From the NCBI GenBank assembly GCA_020720115.1, contig DYPD01000013.1, positions 1-49,165 of the forward strand: a stretch of 49,165 nucleotides of DNA, written 5' to 3'. The DNA comes from Thiomargarita sp. GTDB lineage: Bacteria; Pseudomonadota; Gammaproteobacteria; Beggiatoales; Beggiatoaceae. The notes beneath the pieces were generated by a model. It did no database searches. It was not told the DNA's origin and was given only the letters and a program-made list of their open reading frames with translations. The position numbers were made by a program, and so were the translations under genes. Below, piece after piece: positions 28,673-38,203 of the stretch (the stretch's first letter is position 1; every line of letters starts with the position of its first letter).

Positions 28673-29692
28673 TTACGGATGTGTTGGCTTAGCAGGTATG
28701 CAGAGGTTTTCTAAAAACTGCCGAGTGCAGACTTCCCAGGCATAGCGCATGGCATATTCACGGCATTTTTCCGCGCTAGGCGGATTTTGCAGCACTTGAT
28801 TGACAGCGGTTTGCAGGTTTTCGTGCAAGACGCCAACGCCACTGTTGTCTATCACGTCAATAGGTCCGGGCACCGGATAAGCGGCAACGGGAACGCCGCA
28901 GGCGAGGGCTTCAATCAGCACCAAACCAAAGGTGTCGGTGCGGCTGGGAAAGACAAAAATATCCGCAGCAGCAAAGTGTTGGGCGAGTTCTTCACCGACT
29001 TTAGCCCCCACAAAATGCACTTGCGGATAATGCTGGCGCAGGCTGTCAAGTTGCGGACCGTCGCCGACCACATATTTTGTGCCGGGAATGTCCAATTTCA
29101 GAAAATCTTCAATACTTTTTTCAATGGCAACGCGCCCAACGTAGAGTGCTATCGGGCGTTGCCCTTGCAGAAAGGCTTTATCGCGCACCTTAAATAGCCC
29201 AGTATCCACGCCACGCGACCAGCGCACCAGGTTTTTGAAGCCCCATTGTTCCAGTTCTTTCGCCATACTCGGCGTAGCGATCATGATGCGTTCTGCGTGT
29301 GCATGAAAACGCCGCAGCAGCGCGTAGCCCCAACGGGCGGGAATGCGGAAACGTGCTTCAACATATTCAGGGAATTTGGTGTGAAATGAAGTGGTAAAGC
29401 GGTAGCCGTGCTTGATGCAAAAACCGCGTGTCGCCCAACCCAAAGGACCTTCGGTTGCAATATGCACGGCATCAGGCTGAAAGCTTTCTACTATCTGTTT
29501 GATTTTACGACTGGTTCTGAATGCTAGGCGAATTTCAGGATAGGTTGGGCAGGGTAGCGTTGAAAAAAGATCGGGACTAATGACAGCAACCTCATGTCCC
29601 ATGCGTTGCAAAGTGTCGCGGGTGGTCATGAGTGTACGCACCACGCCGTTGATTTGCGGCTGCCAAGCGTCTGAGGCAATCAGGATTTTCAT
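28673..29692 (-). CDS. agt: GT4-family glycosyltransferase, Agt-like (glycolipid synthesis)
   Basis: About 339 residues. N-terminal domain MKILIASDAWQPQINGVVRT, HIATEGPLGWATRGFCIKHG and FTTSFHTKFPEYVEARF. The C-terminal GT-B donor domain has LYVGRVAIEKSIEDF and the FGLVLIEALACGVPVAAYPV motif with its catalytic glutamates. Proteins of this type next to PlcP-type phosphoesterases are the Agt enzymes that glycosylate diacylglycerol during phosphate starvation in other bacteria. I infer the same here from sequence style and neighbours; sugar specificity cannot be read. The ATG at 29692 gives a 4-base gap after the phosphoesterase; the longer frame starting at 29755 overlaps it. Confidence 0.8.
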   Translation of the reverse strand: MKILIASDAWQPQINGVVRTLMTTRDTLQRMGHEVAVISPDLFSTLPCPTYPEIRLAFRTSRKIKQIVESFQPDAVHIATEGPLGWATRGFCIKHGYRFTTSFHTKFPEYVEARFRIPARWGYALLRRFHAHAERIMIATPSMAKELEQWGFKNLVRWSRGVDTGLFKVRDKAFLQGQRPIALYVGRVAIEKSIEDFLKLDIPGTKYVVGDGPQLDSLRQHYPQVHFVGAKVGEELAQHFAAADIFVFPSRTDTFGLVLIEALACGVPVAAYPVPGPIDVIDNSGVGVLHENLQTAVNQVLQNPPSAEKCREYAMRYAWEVCTRQFLENLCIPAKPTHP

Positions 29693-29696
29693 GGTG

Positions 29697-30563
29697 TTAG
29701 GCGTTAGAAGTTCGGGCAGAGACAGGAAGTGGGGGCGCATCTGGGCTTTCGACACCGGCTTTGGGCGGGTGGCTATGACGTTCTTTTTCCCGGAGATAGA
29801 CTTCTTTTTGCGCGTCAGTCCAACGCAGCACGGAAAATTGACCGTTCCAATCTTCCAGCAACGCCGTGCAACTTTCTACCCAATCGCCATCGTTGCAATA
29901 CAAAATGCCTTCAATTTCACGGATTTCCGCATGATGAATGTGTCCGCAAATGATGCCGTCTAGTTCGCGGCGGCGGGCTTCAATAGCCAGCGTTTGTTCA
30001 AAATCACTGATAAAGCTGACCGCATTTTTAACCCGATGCTTTAGATAAGCTGACAGCGACCAATAAGGATAGCCTAACCAGCCGCGCACGCGGTTAAACA
30101 AAGTATTGAGACTCAGCACCAGGGTATAAGCCCAGTCGCCCAAATGCGCCAGCCAGGGCGCATACTGCATCACACCGTCATACATATCTCCATGAATAAC
30201 CAAAAATTTTCGCCCATCCGCATTGGTGTGTATGACTTCTTCTTGCACCTCAATGCCGCCAAACTGGTTATCGCTAAATTGGCGTAGCATCATGTCATGA
30301 TTGCCAGGTACATAAATCACTTTCGTGCCTTTACGCGCCTTGCGCAGCAGTTTTTGCACGACATCGTTGTGGCTTTGCGGCCAATACCAGCCGCGTTTGA
30401 GTTGCCAGCCGTCCACAATGTCGCCGACTAAGTACAGGTATTCAGATTCATTCTCGCGCAGAAAATCGAGCAAGAAATCCGCCTGGCAGCCTTTAGTACC
30501 CAAATGAATATCGGATAAAAAAATGCTGCGATACTGATATTGACTCTGCTGCGCCGCCGTCAT
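29697..30563 (-). CDS. plcP: PlcP-like metallophosphoesterase (phospholipase C)
   Basis: Calcineurin-like phosphoesterase of 288 residues with all metal motifs: SDIHLG (D18, H20), GDIVDGW, PGNHD, IHGDMYD and GHIHHAEI. Usually auto-annotated as UDP-2,3-diacylglucosamine diphosphatase. LpxH proper is about 240 residues and lacks stretches such as WYWPQSHNDVVQKLLRKAR and PYWSLSAYLKHRVKNAV. Those are like the phosphate-starvation phospholipase C PlcP of rhizobia (from memory). PlcP cuts phospholipids to diacylglycerol, the substrate of BtaA and Agt, which flank it. The ATG at 30563 overlaps the btaB stop by one base and has AGGAG seven bases upstream. A Pro-rich tail ends the protein. Confidence 0.8.
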   Translation of the reverse strand: MTAAQQSQYQYRSIFLSDIHLGTKGCQADFLLDFLRENESEYLYLVGDIVDGWQLKRGWYWPQSHNDVVQKLLRKARKGTKVIYVPGNHDMMLRQFSDNQFGGIEVQEEVIHTNADGRKFLVIHGDMYDGVMQYAPWLAHLGDWAYTLVLSLNTLFNRVRGWLGYPYWSLSAYLKHRVKNAVSFISDFEQTLAIEARRRELDGIICGHIHHAEIREIEGILYCNDGDWVESCTALLEDWNGQFSVLRWTDAQKEVYLREKERHSHPPKAGVESPDAPPLPVSARTSNA

Positions 30564-31216
30564 CAAACTGCTCCTGGTTTTTTAAGATGAGCAATAAAGG
30601 CATAGTCGCGGTAAAGCGGTGTCCATTCAAAAGCAACAGCGCCTTGCGCGGCTAATTCGTGCAAATGTCCTGGCAGTTCTGGATTAGGATGAACATCAAA
30701 CAGCGTCAACCAGCGACGCAAGCCAGCGCGAAACCAGGCAGGTAATTGAGTTTGCAAGGAAAAATCTACGATATAGAGATCGCCGCCAGGTTTTAGGTTA
30801 GTTAAACCCTGCGCAAGAGCCTCGCGCCAAGGCGGAATCATTGACAGCGCATAAGAATAAAACACGCAATCAAAGGGTTTTTCTAAGCCAAACATGCCCT
30901 GGTAATGCACCTCTTCTGCTAGACCATGCTGTAAATGAATGCGCTTTTGATAGGCTTTGTTGTGCAATTTCTGCACAGCGGTGTCGAGCATTTCACTGGA
31001 AGCATCAACCCCGTAAAACGCCACTTCAGCGTGACGGCAAGCCAGCTTTTCCAGATTCCGCGCTGTGCCACAGCCCATTTCCAACACCCGGTCGCCTGGT
31101 TGTATCTGCATACGTTCAATCAGGGTATCGCGCCCCAATAGGTAATATTTCCGAGTTAAATCATAGATATGCCGCTGATAGCGATACATCTGATTCATGT
31201 GAGCTACTGTATCCAT
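30563..31216 (-). CDS. btaB: BtaB-like betaine lipid N-methyltransferase
   Basis: A 217-residue class I SAM methyltransferase with the SAM motif RVLEMGCGTARN (about 43-54), YGVDASSEML and FDCVFYSYALSMIPPW. BtaB methylates diacylglyceryl-homoserine three times to DGTS. The assignment rests on the start MYRYQRHIYDLTRKYYLLGR, typical of this family, and on the upstream btaA. It overlaps plcP by one base. The ATG at 31216 lacks a strong ribosome site; the ATG at 31198 is an alternative. A terminator-like hairpin separates it from btaA. Confidence 0.85.
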   Translation of the reverse strand: MDTVAHMNQMYRYQRHIYDLTRKYYLLGRDTLIERMQIQPGDRVLEMGCGTARNLEKLACRHAEVAFYGVDASSEMLDTAVQKLHNKAYQKRIHLQHGLAEEVHYQGMFGLEKPFDCVFYSYALSMIPPWREALAQGLTNLKPGGDLYIVDFSLQTQLPAWFRAGLRRWLTLFDVHPNPELPGHLHELAAQGAVAFEWTPLYRDYAFIAHLKKPGAV

Positions 31217-31230
31217 GAGGGTCTGCCCAT

Positions 31231-31271
31231 AAAAAAACGCACAAACCGATGACTGTCTAAGTCTGTGCGTT
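31231..31271 (-). terminator. Terminator-like hairpin between btaA and btaB
   Basis: Minus strand AACGCACA (31271-31264), a 20-base loop, TGTGCGTT (31243-31236), continuing into a run of seven T. It lies 16 bases after the btaA stop and 15 bases before the btaB start. It could lower expression of the downstream genes relative to btaA. Confidence 0.7.
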
Positions 31272-31286
31272 CAGTGGGGAAAAAGA

Positions 31287-32534
31287 TTAAGCCGCCGCTG
31301 TTTCTAAAGAGGCAGCGGAGTTTGGCATGTGGTAGACATGAAAGCCGCCATAAATGGCTGAGCGGTCACGGCGAAAGAGTTCTAATGAGCGCTCTTTTTC
31401 ATAGACAAAACGCTGCAAAAGAGCCGGTGGCAAAGCAGTTTCAATCGGTGAATCAGTAGAAGCGGTGCGGAAAATAATGCGTGAACCCAGGCGACCGGCG
31501 CGAGCAATTTCAGTCCACAAAGCGGTAATGACTTCATCTTTCATCCAATCTTGAGAATCCAGAAAAATGAAACGATCTAAAGCATTCGCTGGTTGTGCCG
31601 CTAAGAAATCAATCAAGGAAGTAATGTGGGTTTCAATGCGCGACAAGCGAGATTTAATGGTCTCGTAATGTTCTGCTTTCAGATAATCAGGTACGGCTTC
31701 ACGATTGACATGATCATAAGACAGCGAAAAACCCTGCCAGGCAAAATAATTATCTTGAATGGGGAAATCGCACACTAAACGGCGTACGCGCTCACGGTAC
31801 AGATTGACTAGATTACCTTGAGACTCGGTTTTCATTGCCTGGTATTGTTGCGGCGGAATACCTAAGCTAAAGACTGCAAAAGGTAAATTACCGACTTTAT
31901 TGACAAACCAATGATCAAAGAACGGGGCTATTTCTTTATCAAAAATCTGCTGTTGCTCTTCCATACTTTTGGCGTTCAATAAGCGCTCTGGATTGAAACC
32001 GACTTTTTTACCAATTTGATGCAGAAAACGCATGAAATAGCCAAAGCGTGCATAACGGTAGACATTTTTTTTGAAATAGCGGTTACGTTTGCTCCAGGGC
32101 AAGCCGCCATCCCAAAAACGTTGGGTTTCTTTATCCAAATGCGGACGAATGTAATGCCGATAATTATCCAAATTGTGTTTTTGATCGGCACGCCCAAAGA
32201 AATCATAGAAGGTTTCATAATCAGGCAGATGCTCAAACGCTGCTAATTTTAAGCGTGTGAGGTACATATGGTAGGGATTGAGATCAACTGCAACGACTTT
32301 TTCTGGATCATCAATCAGATAATTTAATACATTACAACCACCTGAAGCGATGGTTAAAATACGGCTATTGCTCTGAATTTGCAGAGCTTCGCGGTCAACT
32401 TGCGGGTCTTCCCAAATCTGGTTGTATACAAAACCGTTAAACCACATGCTGAACATACGTTGCAACATGCCCTGACTGGACATCAGGCTATCTTGGTGAA
32501 CCGCTGTTTTGAGAATTTGCGATGCAGCGCCCAT
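31287..32534 (-). CDS. btaA: BtaA-like diacylglycerol 3-amino-3-carboxypropyl transferase (DUF3419)
   Basis: First enzyme of DGTS betaine lipid synthesis: it transfers the 3-amino-3-carboxypropyl group of S-adenosylmethionine to diacylglycerol. 415 residues. Landmarks are FVYNQIWEDPQVDREAL, the nucleotide-binding motif ILTIASGGCNVLNYL (about 59-73), VVAVDLNPYHMYL, and later FIFLDSQDWMKDEVITALW. These are typical of DUF3419/BtaA. The ATG at 32534 has AAGGAA upstream. A Pho-box match lies upstream, pointing to induction by phosphate limitation. Such genes are best known in alphaproteobacteria and are less usual in a gammaproteobacterium. Confidence 0.9.
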   Translation of the reverse strand: MGAASQILKTAVHQDSLMSSQGMLQRMFSMWFNGFVYNQIWEDPQVDREALQIQSNSRILTIASGGCNVLNYLIDDPEKVVAVDLNPYHMYLTRLKLAAFEHLPDYETFYDFFGRADQKHNLDNYRHYIRPHLDKETQRFWDGGLPWSKRNRYFKKNVYRYARFGYFMRFLHQIGKKVGFNPERLLNAKSMEEQQQIFDKEIAPFFDHWFVNKVGNLPFAVFSLGIPPQQYQAMKTESQGNLVNLYRERVRRLVCDFPIQDNYFAWQGFSLSYDHVNREAVPDYLKAEHYETIKSRLSRIETHITSLIDFLAAQPANALDRFIFLDSQDWMKDEVITALWTEIARAGRLGSRIIFRTASTDSPIETALPPALLQRFVYEKERSLELFRRDRSAIYGGFHVYHMPNSAASLETAAA

Positions 32535-32633: not shown

Positions 32634-32849
32634 GCGTTTCCGCGAAAGCGTCATAAGTTGTTGTATAAAAACAATTAACCCTGTTTTTATGGGTTTCTAT
32701 GACCTCCTGGAATGTTATTGCTGTTAGAGGCTTGGTCAGTGAGGCGCTTACAGCACCCTTCTCTACCAAAACGGACATTATAGTGTTTTTTTGCGGGCAA
32801 TTCTCTGGCATGATAGAAAGTCAACGCTTCCAGCAACGAGGACTCAATC

Positions 32850-35800
32850 GTGGAACACCCGCAAGCTGCTTATCGCCATGCTCATTCCAATAGCTTTACC
32901 CCCGCCGAATCATTCGCCGCAACCAGCGCCTTGCCTTGGAAACCTGAAGATTTCGCATTTTTTCTGCGCCAATTACCGCAATTGAGCGGTGCGCGCAATC
33001 TGATGCGGCATTTGGATAAGATCACGCAGCAGGCTTCGCTGCATGTGTTGACGCACTGTCCTGAATACGCGGAAAGCGTCGGTGAGGCGGGTATGAAAGC
33101 CTGTTCGCGGGATAATCGCTTAACGCTGATGCGCGCTGCGCAGTTGTTAGGGGGGCCAAACGAGCGCCCGCAGGAAGCTTTGCTGTGGTGGTGGGATGCT
33201 TCGGTGGGCGGTTATTTAGTGCATCGTGCGCAGGAAGCCTTGGAAGCTAATGTGCAGGGCATGTATCAGGCGTTGGAGCAGCATTTGCCGCGTGCGGAAG
33301 TGCAACCTATCATTGAGCTTGTCAACAAGATGTATCAAGACGCCCTGGGCGTGCAGTTAAAGGTGCGCAGTGCGGTGCAGTTACAAACGGAAAGGCTCTT
33401 GCTGGAAGGTCCGCGTTGGCAGCAGCTTTTTGCGCCGAGCCAAGCACCAGCCGCCGCGCCGCCCGCAGCCTTGGATTGGTTTTCGGCAGTGCCCGCGGAT
33501 CATGCTTTACGCATGAGCAGCGGCGTTAGCAGTTTGCCGCAGGCGATTCAGCAAACGTTGCAGGGCGTGATGCCGATTAAAACGCGGAAAATTCTCTGGA
33601 CTTTTATTGAAGCTCATTTGCAGCAGGGCGACGAGGAAGCGGCTTGGGCGAAAACGCAAAAGCTGATAGAGCGCAGTTTGCGCAGTCAATCTTGCACGCA
33701 ATTGCTGGGCGAATGGCGCGCGTTATTGGCGCGTTTACCGCAGTGGATGACGCCCGCTGCCAGTGCTTATTGGACTGATACACTGCTACGCGGGCAAGAC
33801 CTCATTGCGCAAGTGAGCCTGGGGCGGACGTTGCAAAAAGAACATAAACGCCTGGCGACAGACATTGCTGCGCATTTGCTGCAACAGCGCGTGGTGGCGC
33901 GGTACTCGCCCAAAGACAGCGGCAGTGCGCCAGGCAGCAACCGCTTGGACACCGCGCAGCAGAAATGCCAACGCGATTTGGGCTTGCTGTTTGAGGCGAT
34001 GGGGGAGATTTTGATACAAGAGCCGCCCAGCTTGGCGGCGCTGAATATCAGCCGTTATCTAGTGCAAAATATCGCGCCTTTTGTGGATTATCCGGGGCGC
34101 GTGTGGCGGCTGGTGTGGTTGAAATTACAGGATAATCTTTGGTCACTTTTGAACGCTCAAGAGCACAGTGTGCTGCTGTTGTGGGTGGCGCAATTGCAGG
34201 ATGTGTGCGCTGATCTGTACGCCACGCGCCCCTTAGCTGAAGCTGTGTTTCATCAGTCTGCGCCCGTGTTTGGTGACCCTGAAATCGCCGAGCAGGATTG
34301 GCGCAATGCCATCGGCGGTTTGCTTAGCGCGGCTTTAACTTCCACCGCCGCGCCTTATCCGTGCACAGTGCTGGCGCAACGCCTGTTGCTGTCCAGTCCG
34401 GTGTTCCGCAACATGGACGCCAATCGCTGGCAAGCCACGCACACTGCGCTGGCAGAAAGCTTTGCTGACCTCTTGCCCGCGCCCTTACTGGAGGCTTTGC
34501 AGCAAGTGCAAGCCAACATGAGCCACAGTTTATTGCGCTTGACCATGCACGACAGCTTGGCGGGTTTGCACAGCGAACCTGGCAACCAAGCGCAACAACT
34601 GCGCTTTTATTTAGCGTTGCCGGATTTGCCTTATCTGGCGCACAGTTGGCAGATTCAATTGTGGGCAAAGTTGTCTAAACAACAGCAAGAAGGCAAATCC
34701 GCAGTGCTGATGCTCAATCCCGCAGATCGCTTGTTGGCGGAATTAAATCATTGGCATTTGCCGACGCTGGCAGTCTTGCAAGCACGTTTTGAACGCTACG
34801 CCAGCGTGGTGGATGTCAAGCAATGGCTGGCGCTACCCGCCGAACAAAACGCCGCGCCACGCGAACACGCATCAAACGCTACGGATGCTGGCATATCGCT
34901 GGCGGACGAATATGCACTGAATTTGCGTTGCTTGGCGCTCTATGGACAAACCCCACAACTGCATTCGCTGTTGTATAGCAACTACTTGTTTTTAGAGCAG
35001 TCTTTGGCGCAAGCGCAACGTGCCGCGCAAGCCAGTGCGCAAACCCCGTCGGCACTCATGGAAAGCTGGTTTAGCGCCTTGCCCAGCAGCCATGTGTTGG
35101 CAGAAAGTGCGACACAAGCGCAAGCCCTGCTGCCAAAACTGTCCATCGCACGGCGTTTGCTCAATCCGGGCAAAGATTTATCCGCCGAACTCTTCCCGCT
35201 GTTGCAGGTTAATCCCTGCATGGACTTCAATTTTTTGCTGCAACAAATTGGCGTTTATTGTTCTGGCTTAGTGCCGGCGCTGGATTTAGCCCGTTGGTAT
35301 CAAGAAAATATCGCCATTTTCACCAGCTTACGCACCCGCCAGCGCAACGCCAAGCTGTGGGGCGGACTGGTTAAACACCTGGGCGCAAGCTGGTCACAAG
35401 CCGAACAAAAAATCTTGCTGGAAGCTGTCAAAACCCTGGCGCGTCCTTATTCAACAGCGACACAAAACGACATGCCGCGCCTGAACGTGCGCCAGTTTGA
35501 CTTGCGCGGGGCGCTCTGGCGGCAGGTATTTCAAACCGCACAGCCCTCTTCTGCGCTCCAGGCTTTGCAGCAAGTGTTGCCAGCCTGTAGCACTCAATTG
35601 TCCGCCGCTGTTTATCAAGGTTTAGAGGCTTTTTGCCAAACTTGGAACGACAGCGGCGATGTCGAAGCGGCTTGGGAACGCCTGCAAGCCTATTGGCAAA
35701 CCCAACTACAGCATCAATCTACTGCTGTTTTGTACCGCGACTGGCAGGCTGCTTTGCCGATTCTGGCGCAGCATCTCAATCCGCTACAAGAAGCCTATTG

Positions 35801-37454
35801 GCTGCACAGCTTGCATCAAGGCTTGACGCTGTTGGCGCAAACGGGTTTGGGGTTACGCTTGCAACAACAAGCCGATGAAATTGCGCGGCGTATTGCCCAA
35901 CGTCTGGCTCAAGCGCCCCAGGGTTTTAGCGATTTCGGGCTTGCCGATCCAGTGCTTGCCGCCGCCAAATGTCGCCGTGATCAAGCCCTTTTGCTGCAAG
36001 CTGTTGGCGAGTATCTGAGCCACCAATCCCCCAGCCTCGCGGCGCTCAACATCGGGCGCTATCTGATGCAAAACATAGTACCTTTCGTGAGTTACAACAC
36101 CGGCGTGTGGCAACTGGTATGGCTGGCGTGGCAAGATGCTGCGCAAGAAGTGCTCGATCCCATTGAAAAACAAGCACTACGCCTGTGGCGCGAACAACTC
36201 AGCAGCCTCAGCCCACACATCACCGCCTTGTACGCGCTGGACTGCTTCCAACCCGCCGGACACGCCAACTTGCGCCCCGAAGTGCAAGCCCAACAGCACA
36301 TGCGCCTAGATACCTTGGCTGGACTCCTGTGTGCAGCGGCAACCCCAGATAACGCGCCAATTCCCGGCTGCTATGTGTTGCAACGCCTGGTGCTCAGTAG
36401 TCCACTGTTTGCGGGTCACACCGCTGTCAGTTGGCAGGAAGTGCAAGCCGAGCTGACGCAGCCTTTAGCCGTGCTAGACCCCAGTGACCTGCACCAAGCC
36501 CTGCAACAGCGGTATAGCCAAATCATTGATTTATTGTTTAAATTACCGCGTTTACACGAATGGCAAAACTTCAACGGCGACGAAATCAAGGCGCTACTGC
36601 TCAGTGCCGCGCCCGCTGCCGAACTAACCTGGGATTTAAGCCAATACGCAGGTAGTTCGCAAATCCAAACCGCCTCACCCAGCACCCTGTTGGTACAACA
36701 AAGCAACGGCTGGCACGGTCTACAACCGCAGCAAGCGCAACAACTGGCACAAACCTACAAAAGCATTCGCCAATTCGATTACCATCAAACCCTCAGCGGT
36801 GGTAAATGGTATCAGCGCAACCAACCTGCCAGTCTGCCCGCGCCCGCCGTGCCGCTGCTGCAAACCCTACTGTGCAACCTCAGTCTCTATACCCAAGTGC
36901 GCCCATCAGATAATCCAATCGCCGCACAACAAAGCGTGCGCTACTGGCTGGCGCAAAGCTGGCAAGCCCTGCAAGAGCTACAGCCCAACATGCCCAAAAG
37001 CAGCCTGCTCAACTTCGCCCAACTCTGGCAACAACAACAGGCGCAACAGCCGCATTTGGCGCGACTTGGCGAATTGCTCCAGCAACAGCTTGCTGCCGTC
37101 GTCGCCGGACACAAGCTACTGACCCTCAATCTGGACAAATACCTCGCCAAAGCCACCACGCATCCGCGTTGTGCCACCGATGCACGTTACTTGTTCAAGC
37201 AAATGGGCGCGATTCTGTGTGGCGAACCCCAAGCCTATGCGCTGGAGGACTGGTATGCGCAGCATGTCGGGCGCTACCTCAAACCCGCTACCCGCCCGCA
37301 AGAACTGCAATTTTTTAACAAATTGCCTAAAACCTGGAGCGATCTCTTTGATGCCGAAGAACAAGCTGCATTAGCGCCCTTATTTGTCGCACTGCTCAAG
37401 CACTTAGCGCAAGCGCCGCCGCCCACCCAAATCGAGTGGACTGTCAGCCGCTAA
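32850..37454 (+). CDS. Giant helical repeat protein with phycobiliprotein-like C-x-R-D segments
   Basis: 1534 residues, Gln/Ala/Leu-rich, nearly all helical, with no signal peptide or membrane span, so probably cytoplasmic. An N-terminal domain (1-200) has ACSRDNRLTLMRAAQLL with Cys85. Two large units follow (about 215-870 and 885-1534). They align by EEAAWAKTQKLIERSL with VEAAWERLQAYWQTQL, KCQRDLGLLFEAMGEIL (Cys373) with KCRRDQALLLQAVGEYL (Cys1041), RLLLSSPVF with RLVLSSPLF, and CMDFNFLLQQIG (Cys790) with CATDARYLFKQMG (Cys1441). The segment before each C-x-R-D and the PSLAALNI(S/G)RYL after it match in spacing the bilin-binding region of phycobiliproteins (KCARD..YYLR..TY.L...GPLDEYL). That relation is inference. 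The start is GTG with GAGGA seven bases upstream. Divergent from the lipid operon. Real function unknown. Confidence 0.85.
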   Translation: MEHPQAAYRHAHSNSFTPAESFAATSALPWKPEDFAFFLRQLPQLSGARNLMRHLDKITQQASLHVLTHCPEYAESVGEAGMKACSRDNRLTLMRAAQLLGGPNERPQEALLWWWDASVGGYLVHRAQEALEANVQGMYQALEQHLPRAEVQPIIELVNKMYQDALGVQLKVRSAVQLQTERLLLEGPRWQQLFAPSQAPAAAPPAALDWFSAVPADHALRMSSGVSSLPQAIQQTLQGVMPIKTRKILWTFIEAHLQQGDEEAAWAKTQKLIERSLRSQSCTQLLGEWRALLARLPQWMTPAASAYWTDTLLRGQDLIAQVSLGRTLQKEHKRLATDIAAHLLQQRVVARYSPKDSGSAPGSNRLDTAQQKCQRDLGLLFEAMGEILIQEPPSLAALNISRYLVQNIAPFVDYPGRVWRLVWLKLQDNLWSLLNAQEHSVLLLWVAQLQDVCADLYATRPLAEAVFHQSAPVFGDPEIAEQDWRNAIGGLLSAALTSTAAPYPCTVLAQRLLLSSPVFRNMDANRWQATHTALAESFADLLPAPLLEALQQVQANMSHSLLRLTMHDSLAGLHSEPGNQAQQLRFYLALPDLPYLAHSWQIQLWAKLSKQQQEGKSAVLMLNPADRLLAELNHWHLPTLAVLQARFERYASVVDVKQWLALPAEQNAAPREHASNATDAGISLADEYALNLRCLALYGQTPQLHSLLYSNYLFLEQSLAQAQRAAQASAQTPSALMESWFSALPSSHVLAESATQAQALLPKLSIARRLLNPGKDLSAELFPLLQVNPCMDFNFLLQQIGVYCSGLVPALDLARWYQENIAIFTSLRTRQRNAKLWGGLVKHLGASWSQAEQKILLEAVKTLARPYSTATQNDMPRLNVRQFDLRGALWRQVFQTAQPSSALQALQQVLPACSTQLSAAVYQGLEAFCQTWNDSGDVEAAWERLQAYWQTQLQHQSTAVLYRDWQAALPILAQHLNPLQEAYWLHSLHQGLTLLAQTGLGLRLQQQADEIARRIAQRLAQAPQGFSDFGLADPVLAAAKCRRDQALLLQAVGEYLSHQSPSLAALNIGRYLMQNIVPFVSYNTGVWQLVWLAWQDAAQEVLDPIEKQALRLWREQLSSLSPHITALYALDCFQPAGHANLRPEVQAQQHMRLDTLAGLLCAAATPDNAPIPGCYVLQRLVLSSPLFAGHTAVSWQEVQAELTQPLAVLDPSDLHQALQQRYSQIIDLLFKLPRLHEWQNFNGDEIKALLLSAAPAAELTWDLSQYAGSSQIQTASPSTLLVQQSNGWHGLQPQQAQQLAQTYKSIRQFDYHQTLSGGKWYQRNQPASLPAPAVPLLQTLLCNLSLYTQVRPSDNPIAAQQSVRYWLAQSWQALQELQPNMPKSSLLNFAQLWQQQQAQQPHLARLGELLQQQLAAVVAGHKLLTLNLDKYLAKATTHPRCATDARYLFKQMGAILCGEPQAYALEDWYAQHVGRYLKPATRPQELQFFNKLPKTWSDLFDAEEQAALAPLFVALLKHLAQAPPPTQIEWTVSR

Positions 37455-37528: not shown

Positions 37529-38203
37529 TTAATTGAGCAGCAAATCCCCGCTGCTTTGCAATACATCAAGCTGTGCGGAACAACCTTGCTGCTGCATCCA
37601 GTCAAACAGGTCTGCTCGATTTTGCACTGTTTCTGGCAACTGGTGAAAATTGACCGCAACTGTTGTGCTATCTATGTTAAAGATATAGGTACTGCCTTCT
37701 ACTAAGGGCAATTTCTTTGCTGGCCAATCCAATAGCGTTTGGTTAGCAGGCCAGCGCAGACGTATCCGATCTTCACTGTTATGTGCCTGAATATTCAAAT
37801 GGATAGGGATTGCCGCATCACTACGCCACAATTGCAATTGCTCAGGGTTGCGATAGCAAAAATTATGTCCATGCTGAACATCCAACGCCCAGATGGAAGG
37901 CGGCAAACTGGAGGCACTGCGTTGACGTGGGCGCACCGGATCGGCGGCTAACATCAAGCGGGCGCACTTTAACTGGCTGGCATAAGGACCTATGATGTCA
38001 CATTTTTCTTCAGTTTTTAGCGATTTGACTTGCAGTTTTTCGCCTTTTTGCAGATTGATGATTTGACTATCGGATAACACTTCGCCAGACTTGTAGCCTG
38101 ATGCAAAGCTATTGAGAATGCTGTAATTCTCTACATTGGTAGCAAGAACGTTCAGACTCCCCAATAATGTGCTGAGGGCGAATAAATAGTGGCTGGGGCG
38201 CAT
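37529..38203 (-). CDS. Exported protein of unknown function
   Basis: 224 residues with a signal peptide (HYLFALSTLLGSLNVLA, cleavage near residue 21). The mature part has GYKSGEVLSDSQIINLQKGE followed by KLQVKSLK and DIIGPYASQL. This is the small beta pattern 'G.VL.....I.L..G..L.V.......I.GPY' that I associate with exported proteins beside FecR-like or CHAT/caspase regulators. The second half holds LRWPANQTLLDWPAKKLPLV and a Cys near the end. Five cysteines in the mature part could form disulfides. AAGGAA precedes the ATG. No partner genes are near. Function unknown. Confidence 0.8.
   Translation of the reverse strand: MRPSHYLFALSTLLGSLNVLATNVENYSILNSFASGYKSGEVLSDSQIINLQKGEKLQVKSLKTEEKCDIIGPYASQLKCARLMLAADPVRPRQRSASSLPPSIWALDVQHGHNFCYRNPEQLQLWRSDAAIPIHLNIQAHNSEDRIRLRWPANQTLLDWPAKKLPLVEGSTYIFNIDSTTVAVNFHQLPETVQNRADLFDWMQQQGCSAQLDVLQSSGDLLLN

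Follow-up and report, generated by a model that had tools for sequence, protein, structure and literature searches.

A five-domain, phycobiliprotein-like polyglobin with putative bilin-binding cysteines in the family of Thiomargarita

The closest described counterparts of the protein reported here are BBAG-1 and the pre-PcyA cluster of Rockwell, Martin & Lagarias 2023 (PMC10151467); that paper and the two others drawn on below are cited for the parts of their text covered here. When produced in E. coli alongside plasmids for bilin synthesis, one BBAG-1 was poorly loaded and photoinactive, one BBAG-3 was better loaded with a fluorescence yield of ~3%, and a lyase was not needed; the functions of BBAG proteins are given as not yet known (PMC10151467). 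For the cyanobacterial counterpart, Slr0144–Slr0149, mutual protein interactions and a role in photosynthetic repair are reported (PMC9880817), which makes a protein complex likely. Here we describe polyglobin, a 1534-residue protein of a Thiomargarita genome (GCA_020720115.1), encoded at positions 32850..37454 on the plus strand of contig DYPD01000013.1, of which positions 1 to 49,165 are the window analysed. Of 42 genomes from the same family, taken to be Beggiatoaceae, five carry such arrays, namely the window's own (G000), a second genome of its genus (G001), G005, G007 (a Thiomargarita metagenome-assembled genome) and G019, which has two paralogues.

A five-globin architecture is well supported: sequence profiles speak for it in every domain, and predicted folds do so in two. 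In the proposed architecture, further helical segments connect five phycobiliprotein-type globin domains into a single polypeptide, and duplication of a unit of two of them, D2–D3, gave rise to D4–D5. Domain 1 (residues 22–190, 32913..33419; all features of the gene are on the plus strand) is phycobiliprotein- and photoglobin-like by Pfam, PDB profile, structural model and hhalign comparison with photoglobins. Repeat unit A (residues 228–870, 33531..35459), delimited by alignment with unit B, holds domain 2 (residues 308–480, 33771..34289), globin-like by a profile (A3) that it shares with domain 4 and related to domains 3 and 5, and domain 3 (residues 735–860, 35052..35429), a degenerate globin-like copy whose profile (A4) indicates homology to domain 1 and to domains 2 and 4. 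Repeat unit B (residues 877–1534, 35478..37451), covered by an AlphaFold2 model of residues 861–1534, holds domain 4 (residues 975–1140, 35772..36269), phycobiliprotein-like by its model match to smURFP, and domain 5 (residues 1375–1525, 36972..37424), degenerate and grouped with domain 3 by profile A4.

Each domain carries one of five cysteines singled out by a first-pass annotation of the sequence, and all five are present in the translated open reading frame (ORF). Cys85 (CSRD, codon 33102..33104), Cys373 (KCQRD, 33966..33968) and Cys1041 (KCRRD, 35970..35972) are putative bilin attachment sites, and the motifs at Cys790 (CMDF, 35217..35219) and Cys1441 (CATD, 37170..37172) are degenerate, so the C-x-R-D motif stands at the putative bilin cysteine in three of the five domains, as had been claimed; the PSLAALN motif reported after the two best cysteines likewise begins 19 residues past both C373 and C1041. 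Three C-x-R-D motifs in an 18-cysteine protein exceed chance (composition shuffles reached three in 0 of 20,000 and two in 9 of 20,000). Six of the 18 cysteines, C70 and the five named ones, are kept in both full-length relatives, G001 and G007 (hypergeometric P = 7e-4), and the other 12 vary in one or both. Cys85 is also kept in G005 and in a shorter homologue in G016, and a D3/D5-type copy in G005 reads CTRD. G005 (87% completeness) keeps its cysteines in D1 and this D3/D5-type domain, and neither a BBAG nor a bilin reductase was found in it.

Alignment of the homologues gave three domain types (D1, D2/D4 and D3/D5), each searched as a separate profile against 177,635 PDB sequences. Every match of the D1 profile was a phycobiliprotein (15 of 15; best E = 3.4e-4). 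The D3/D5 profile placed phycobiliproteins first and second (E = 0.16 and 0.42) and in 6 of 13 matches overall, and both matches of the D2/D4 profile, weak at E = 1.1 and 1.5, were to phycocyanin. Control profiles from an N-terminal head region found in relatives and from two in-between segments gave 1, 0 and 5 PDB matches, none of them a phycobiliprotein. In the printed alignments for all three domain types, the query cysteine is paired with the one in the C-x-R-D motif of the pigment proteins. Compared with one another, the profiles indicate that the three types are homologous: D1 against D3/D5 gives E = 7.4e-10 (lowest E among 100 column-shuffled controls, 0.037), D3/D5 against D2/D4 gives E = 5e-8, or 1.9e-7 in the reverse order (lowest of 100 such controls, 0.016), and D1 against D2/D4 gives E = 0.001 (lowest of 100 such controls, 0.06). 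D1 also aligns by hhalign with the globin part of two photoglobins of the family (E = 1.4e-6; best of 100 shuffles 0.0021), and D3/D5 with the family's BBAG-1 (E = 0.0014; 0 of 30 shuffles as good). Used as a single sequence, polyglobin found no match in the PDB or in NCBIfam, and no B12-binding match appeared anywhere along it in Pfam and NCBIfam searches.

A count of seven globins was rejected: the in-between segment (WRD...QRLxLSSP) resembles a cysteine-less globin at first sight, but its profile matches neither the globin profiles nor PDB chains, and an E of 5e-11 reflects no more than two overlapping alignments. A globin within the N-terminal head was set aside for now (E = 0.012, probability 3.6), though 0 of 30 shuffles reached its score.

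Structure prediction agrees with the profiles. Two AlphaFold2 models were built from six alignment rows each, drawn from the window, L034 and L035; residues 1–870 gave a mean predicted local distance difference test score (pLDDT) of 70.6 and a predicted template modelling score (pTM) of 0.70, and residues 861–1534 gave 81.0 and 0.86. VIA-align listed 50 matches for the first model, 49 titled as phycobiliproteins or derivatives and one as 'Bacterial fluorescent protein', all within model residues up to 171, that is, on domain 1 (Z 10.4–12.6); the best of those listed was smURFP (2.9 angstroms over 130 residues, Z 12.6). The 50 matches listed for the second model were 45 phycobiliproteins or derivatives by title, one 'Bacterial fluorescent protein' and four heme globins, and smURFP was again best on domain 4 (Z 12.8, 2.5 angstroms over 126 residues; model positions 134–264, equal to residues 994–1124). 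smURFP derives from an allophycocyanin. Each of these lists was filled by a single domain, D1 or D4, so that the absence of other folds from them carries no meaning. Foldseek assigned phycobiliproteins probabilities of 0.89–1.00 on the first model. The predicted globin fold of domains 1 and 4 is firm, and domains 2, 3 and 5 appear globin-like by their profiles. With phycobiliproteins ranked first by the profiles, this bears out the first-pass reading of a globin-fold, phycobiliprotein-like, multi-domain protein; the models were not of a non-globin fold, nor did a different helical-repeat family lacking phycobilisome matches emerge.

In the draws searched, arrays are restricted to the window's family. 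Array or head matches occur in 6 of its 42 genomes, with one photoglobin besides. The sixth genome, G016, encodes the head and domain 1 with no further domains and is left out of the five array genomes; the match in G006 is a photoglobin with B12-binding domains and is likewise left out of the array count. Beyond the family, the array search matched a single genome among 369 of the class and a single one among 398 of the phylum, in both cases that of the window. When 84,980 species genomes were scanned by pattern, two loci emerged, both within the family ('Thiotrichales bacterium isolate BB31' and 'Thiomargarita sp. isolate SulCav_GS10...'), and a single-protein scan of species-genome contigs and a search of viral contigs found no relative. 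The cyanobacterial origin proposed in the first-pass annotation gained no support, with homologues found just in the window's family in searches that did not take the array profile to cyanobacterial genomes and with no tree that includes cyanobacterial proteins. In a tree of the repeat units, G007 and the window's genus cluster by their B units (support 82/94, not starred), and the unit duplication therefore probably preceded their split; a tree limited to D2 and D4 does not decide the timing.

Ahead of the globins, the homologues in G007, G019, G005 and G016 carry the N-terminal head of ~440–600 residues. The window's genus has it as a separate gene on another contig, encoding 540 and 569 residues (L048, 6058–7680, minus strand; L046, 1132–2841, plus strand). 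A head that is a gene of its own in one genus and part of the array gene in others suggests joint action of both products. Neither a Pfam match nor a PDB relative of the head protein was found. A 323-residue protein with a run of RGVS repeats (L022, 8271–9242, minus strand) adjoins one of the two array genes of G019 (G019b). Photoglobin genes in two family genomes (L028, 7631–12225; L030, 3808–8542) have similar flanks, which on inspection encode a small protein of monooxygenase-like appearance and large proteins; the latter are histidine kinases in L028.

Relatives of polyglobin lie among genes of the bilin pathway. The order in G007 is heme oxygenase, array gene, Fer2, V4R, a 279-residue protein, BBAG, a second V4R and a Ser/Thr kinase. 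Here the array gene starts 6 bp past the heme oxygenase gene (PF01126, 1.5e-19) and shares 16 bp with the Fer2 gene; genes downstream of Fer2, including the BBAG (PF00502, 1.6e-12), are spaced by -23 to 21 bp between mechanically called ORF ends; and the bilin reductase (PF05996, 4e-19) lies on the opposite strand, one gene (a receiver/HATPase protein) beyond the heme oxygenase. This locus is the pre-1 type of pre-PcyA/BBAG cluster, as set out in the parts of PMC10151467 covered, with an array gene added. In G005 the array gene immediately follows a heme oxygenase gene, and in G019 a Fer2 gene immediately follows one array paralogue.

The window itself (contig C172) holds neither a heme oxygenase nor a bilin reductase, as the first-pass annotation had stated. 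Genome-wide Pfam searches locate both elsewhere in the same genome, the heme oxygenase on C72 and the reductase, split over two frames, close to the end of C3 (L049, 1805–2492, minus strand), each half scoring below cut-off; the split reflects either a sequencing error or decay. A BBAG, a Fer2 gene and two V4R-type genes, one of them below the Pfam cut-off, are on C137. Across the 42 genomes of the family, the four that have BBAG-1 are also the four that have bilin reductase, all of them among the five array genomes, and heme oxygenase occurs in eight, including all five. Counted by genus, co-occurrence has P = 0.0017 and 0.0028; P-values at the level of genomes ignore relatedness. In these counts the two-frame reductase of the window's genome is taken as present, a 17-bit sub-cut-off reductase match in G034 is not counted, and the PF00502 matches of G006 and G022 are left out of the BBAG-1 tally, the latter because it aligns at 51% with that of G006. 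The type II reaction-centre family Photo_RC (PF00124) is matched in 0 of the 42 genomes, the window's included, in a search that did not extend to type I centres.

Several further features of these loci were recorded. A low-complexity protein of 279–443 residues is encoded between V4R and BBAG in all four clusters (L023, 13478–14317; L026, 1536–2441; L027, 7624–8577; L029, 5917–7248) and ends in FFxxLPW or a variant. Its only Pfam match is at chance level, and it is perhaps a linker or docking protein; the idea that it is a bilin reductase was dropped, as it has no reductase match and the actual reductase was located elsewhere. A Ser/Thr kinase gene follows the second V4R gene in two of the four clusters (L023, 15543–17282; L029, 8683–10488) and may be part of the BBAG cluster more widely. 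In Synechocystis the kinase SpkG, which belongs to the slr0144–slr0152 operon, has reportedly been linked with ferredoxin 5. Outside the family, three bilin-reductase-family genes, none of them in a BBAG cluster by eye, are present in G406, of another family (L067, L068 and L069; E 2e-20 to 3e-8); the bilin reductases in two genomes outside the window's family are, by eye, not in BBAG clusters and are uninformative on arrays there.

We lean towards polyglobin being a bilin-carrying, multi-site member of a BBAG/V4R complex, and consider that it likely binds bilin. In the mechanism that we propose, heme oxygenase would produce biliverdin and a ferredoxin-dependent bilin reductase would reduce it, the genes for both being present, the reductase in two frames. 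The conserved cysteines, first of all those in C-x-R-D motifs, would then take up the bilins that the neighbouring enzymes supply, and polyglobin would act as a multi-site member of the BBAG-1/V4R/iron-sulfur system. Such a scaffold could present several chromophores to BBAG, V4R and kinase partners, most plausibly within a signalling complex that responds to light or redox state and has no part in photosynthesis; this is the weakest step of the scheme. A signalling role in place of storage is favoured because the G007 operon includes a hybrid receiver/HATPase protein and a Ser/Thr kinase (the kinase is also in G019), but we give it less than even odds. The boldest form of the proposal, rather unlikely in our judgement, is a non-photosynthetic array of covalently tethered bilins that would serve as an antenna-like sensor of light, with up to five coupled bilins feeding a sulfur-bacterial BBAG/V4R/kinase signalling complex.

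A number of results weigh against a bilin-carrying polyglobin, and several of them bear on other explanations. As a single sequence it matches PF00502 only over residues 41–91 (E = 0.0012, 19.2 bits), under the curated cut-off of 22.2 bits. The D2/D4 profile reaches phycocyanin in the PDB at just E ~1 and aligns with BBAG-1 at E = 0.044 in a stretch of 21 columns that is out of register, even if 0 of 30 shuffles reached that score; D1 against BBAG-1 gave no usable alignment (E = 0.19; 5 of 30 shuffles as good). For mostly helical models a Z below ~13 can arise by chance and may reflect no more than a common arrangement, and both best Z values lie just below it; in Foldseek neither model has a match at E ≤ 0.001. 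The structural comparisons also give some room to a heme-binding globin array for O2, NO or redox sensing, since the fold is that of a globin, heme globins reach Z 10.0–10.5 on domain 4 among the 50 matches listed, and they make up 27 of the best 50 Foldseek rows for the second model (probabilities 0.80–0.97, many of the rows being repeated hemoglobin entries) against six phycobiliproteins (0.91–0.99). Several homologues also have a His after the cysteine of D1 and D5. However, there is no conserved His within 50 residues after C373 or C1041 (His at residue 1058 is Gln in G001), phycobiliproteins stand above heme globins by Z on domain 4, and the sequence profiles match phycobiliproteins and zero heme globins. 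Z, sequence and the cysteine motif together lead us to prefer phycobiliproteins as the relatives and to regard a heme array as very improbable.

Cysteine conservation raises difficulties too. G019 has lost the alignable array cysteines (D1 of both paralogues, Cys85 among them, D2 of both and D3 of one), and it does so while encoding heme oxygenase and bilin reductase; G016, conversely, keeps CLRD in its short homologue, and searches of that genome found neither heme oxygenase nor reductase nor BBAG. Together with the two degenerate motifs of the five and the persistence of both cysteine-less paralogues, these observations are what a structural scaffold would predict, that is, a protein that kept the globin fold and lost bilin binding, its cysteines serving folding or another ligand. 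We think this unlikely, given that the five cysteines and C70 are kept in G001 and G007 while the other 12 vary. Moreover, the BBAG of G019 (L029, 7394–8011) has KINRD in place of KCxRD, so array and BBAG appear to have changed together, which in this one genome points to a shared change in the chemistry of the chromophore and not to decay confined to the array. The poor loading and photoinactivity of the tested BBAG-1, within the covered parts of PMC10151467, speak against light sensing, and with no BBAG function established in print they also leave a place for a bilin carrier or buffer with no light role, which would store or ferry biliverdin or phytobilin among heme oxygenase, reductase and BBAG, or sequester products of heme degradation. 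Its five sites per chain would suit that task, as would an array gene directly after heme oxygenase in G005 and in G007, there ahead of Fer2. Covalent-type C-x-R-D sites, by contrast, would retain their ligand and fit a chromophore better than a carrier, and the presence of a Ser/Thr kinase in two clusters also counts against this reading; we consider a carrier possible but doubtful. The polyglobin gene is, besides, solitary in the window.

The gene itself is a genuine ORF conserved in relatives. The same-genus homologue in G001 (1496 residues) starts with identical residues, MEH, and is 67% identical, and more homologues are found in four other genera. A likely ribosome-binding site, AGGA (32839..32842, plus strand), lies 7 nucleotides upstream of the GTG start. 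Over 1491 codons, positions 1, 2 and 3 have diverged by 27, 17 and 52% between the two genes, the pattern expected for a protein under selection. A scan for promoters and terminators stayed at chance level. Its neighbours are a divergent DUF3419 gene on one side and a convergent orphan gene on the other (37529–38203, minus strand); the latter encodes 224 residues with a start that looks like a signal peptide by eye and has no Pfam match. The divergent gene belongs to a row at 28676–32534 (minus strand) encoding the DUF3419 protein (PF11899, 7e-104), an S-adenosylmethionine (SAM) methyltransferase, a phosphoesterase and a glycosyltransferase. The first two presumably resemble BtaA and BtaB, and the row is a possible betaine-lipid or membrane-lipid remodelling cluster.

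With five domains strung together and a relative inside a bilin-synthesis operon, polyglobin offers a direct handle on the role of BBAG proteins in non-photosynthetic bacteria and on how a single bilin globin evolves into an array. It could also serve spectroscopy and protein engineering as a single-chain multi-bilin scaffold. An antenna-like array, if true, would be a separate route to a bilin array without a phycobilisome.

Set beside the described systems, polyglobin shares with BBAG-1 the phycobiliprotein kind of globin with C-x-R-D, and the array gene of G007 shares the neighbours of the BBAG-1 cluster: heme oxygenase, bilin reductase, an iron-sulfur protein and two V4R proteins. The window's genome differs in keeping these partner genes on other contigs than polyglobin, and whereas the family's BBAG proteins are single domains of 188–208 residues, polyglobin has 1534 residues with five domains and other helical segments. 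Two photoglobins of the family have a globin part similar to domain 1, but polyglobin differs from the photoglobin/photocobilin described in the covered parts of PMC10979010 in having five domains and no B12-binding match. Phycobiliproteins (PF00502) are matched in the position of the cysteine, in C-x-R-D at three sites and, for domains 1 and 4, in predicted fold; polyglobin departs from them in scoring below the Pfam cut-off, in its five copies per chain and in a genome without a type II reaction-centre match. ApcE combines one phycobiliprotein-like domain with linker repeats. It is, like polyglobin, a large multi-domain chain that includes such a domain, and its bilin-binding domain (4xxi) matches domain 4 at Z 10.9, yet the inter-domain segments of polyglobin match no phycobilisome chain in the PDB. 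Searches of the open-access literature returned no paper joining phycobiliprotein, Beggiatoa and globin, nor biliverdin and Thiotrichales, and the titles returned for tandem phycobiliproteins concern known phycobiliproteins or biliproteins; the covered parts of PMC10151467, its supplement excluded, describe no five-globin array protein. As far as these sources extend, polyglobin is distinct from a phycobiliprotein or a BBAG proper, and the addition of an array to the BBAG cluster is new.

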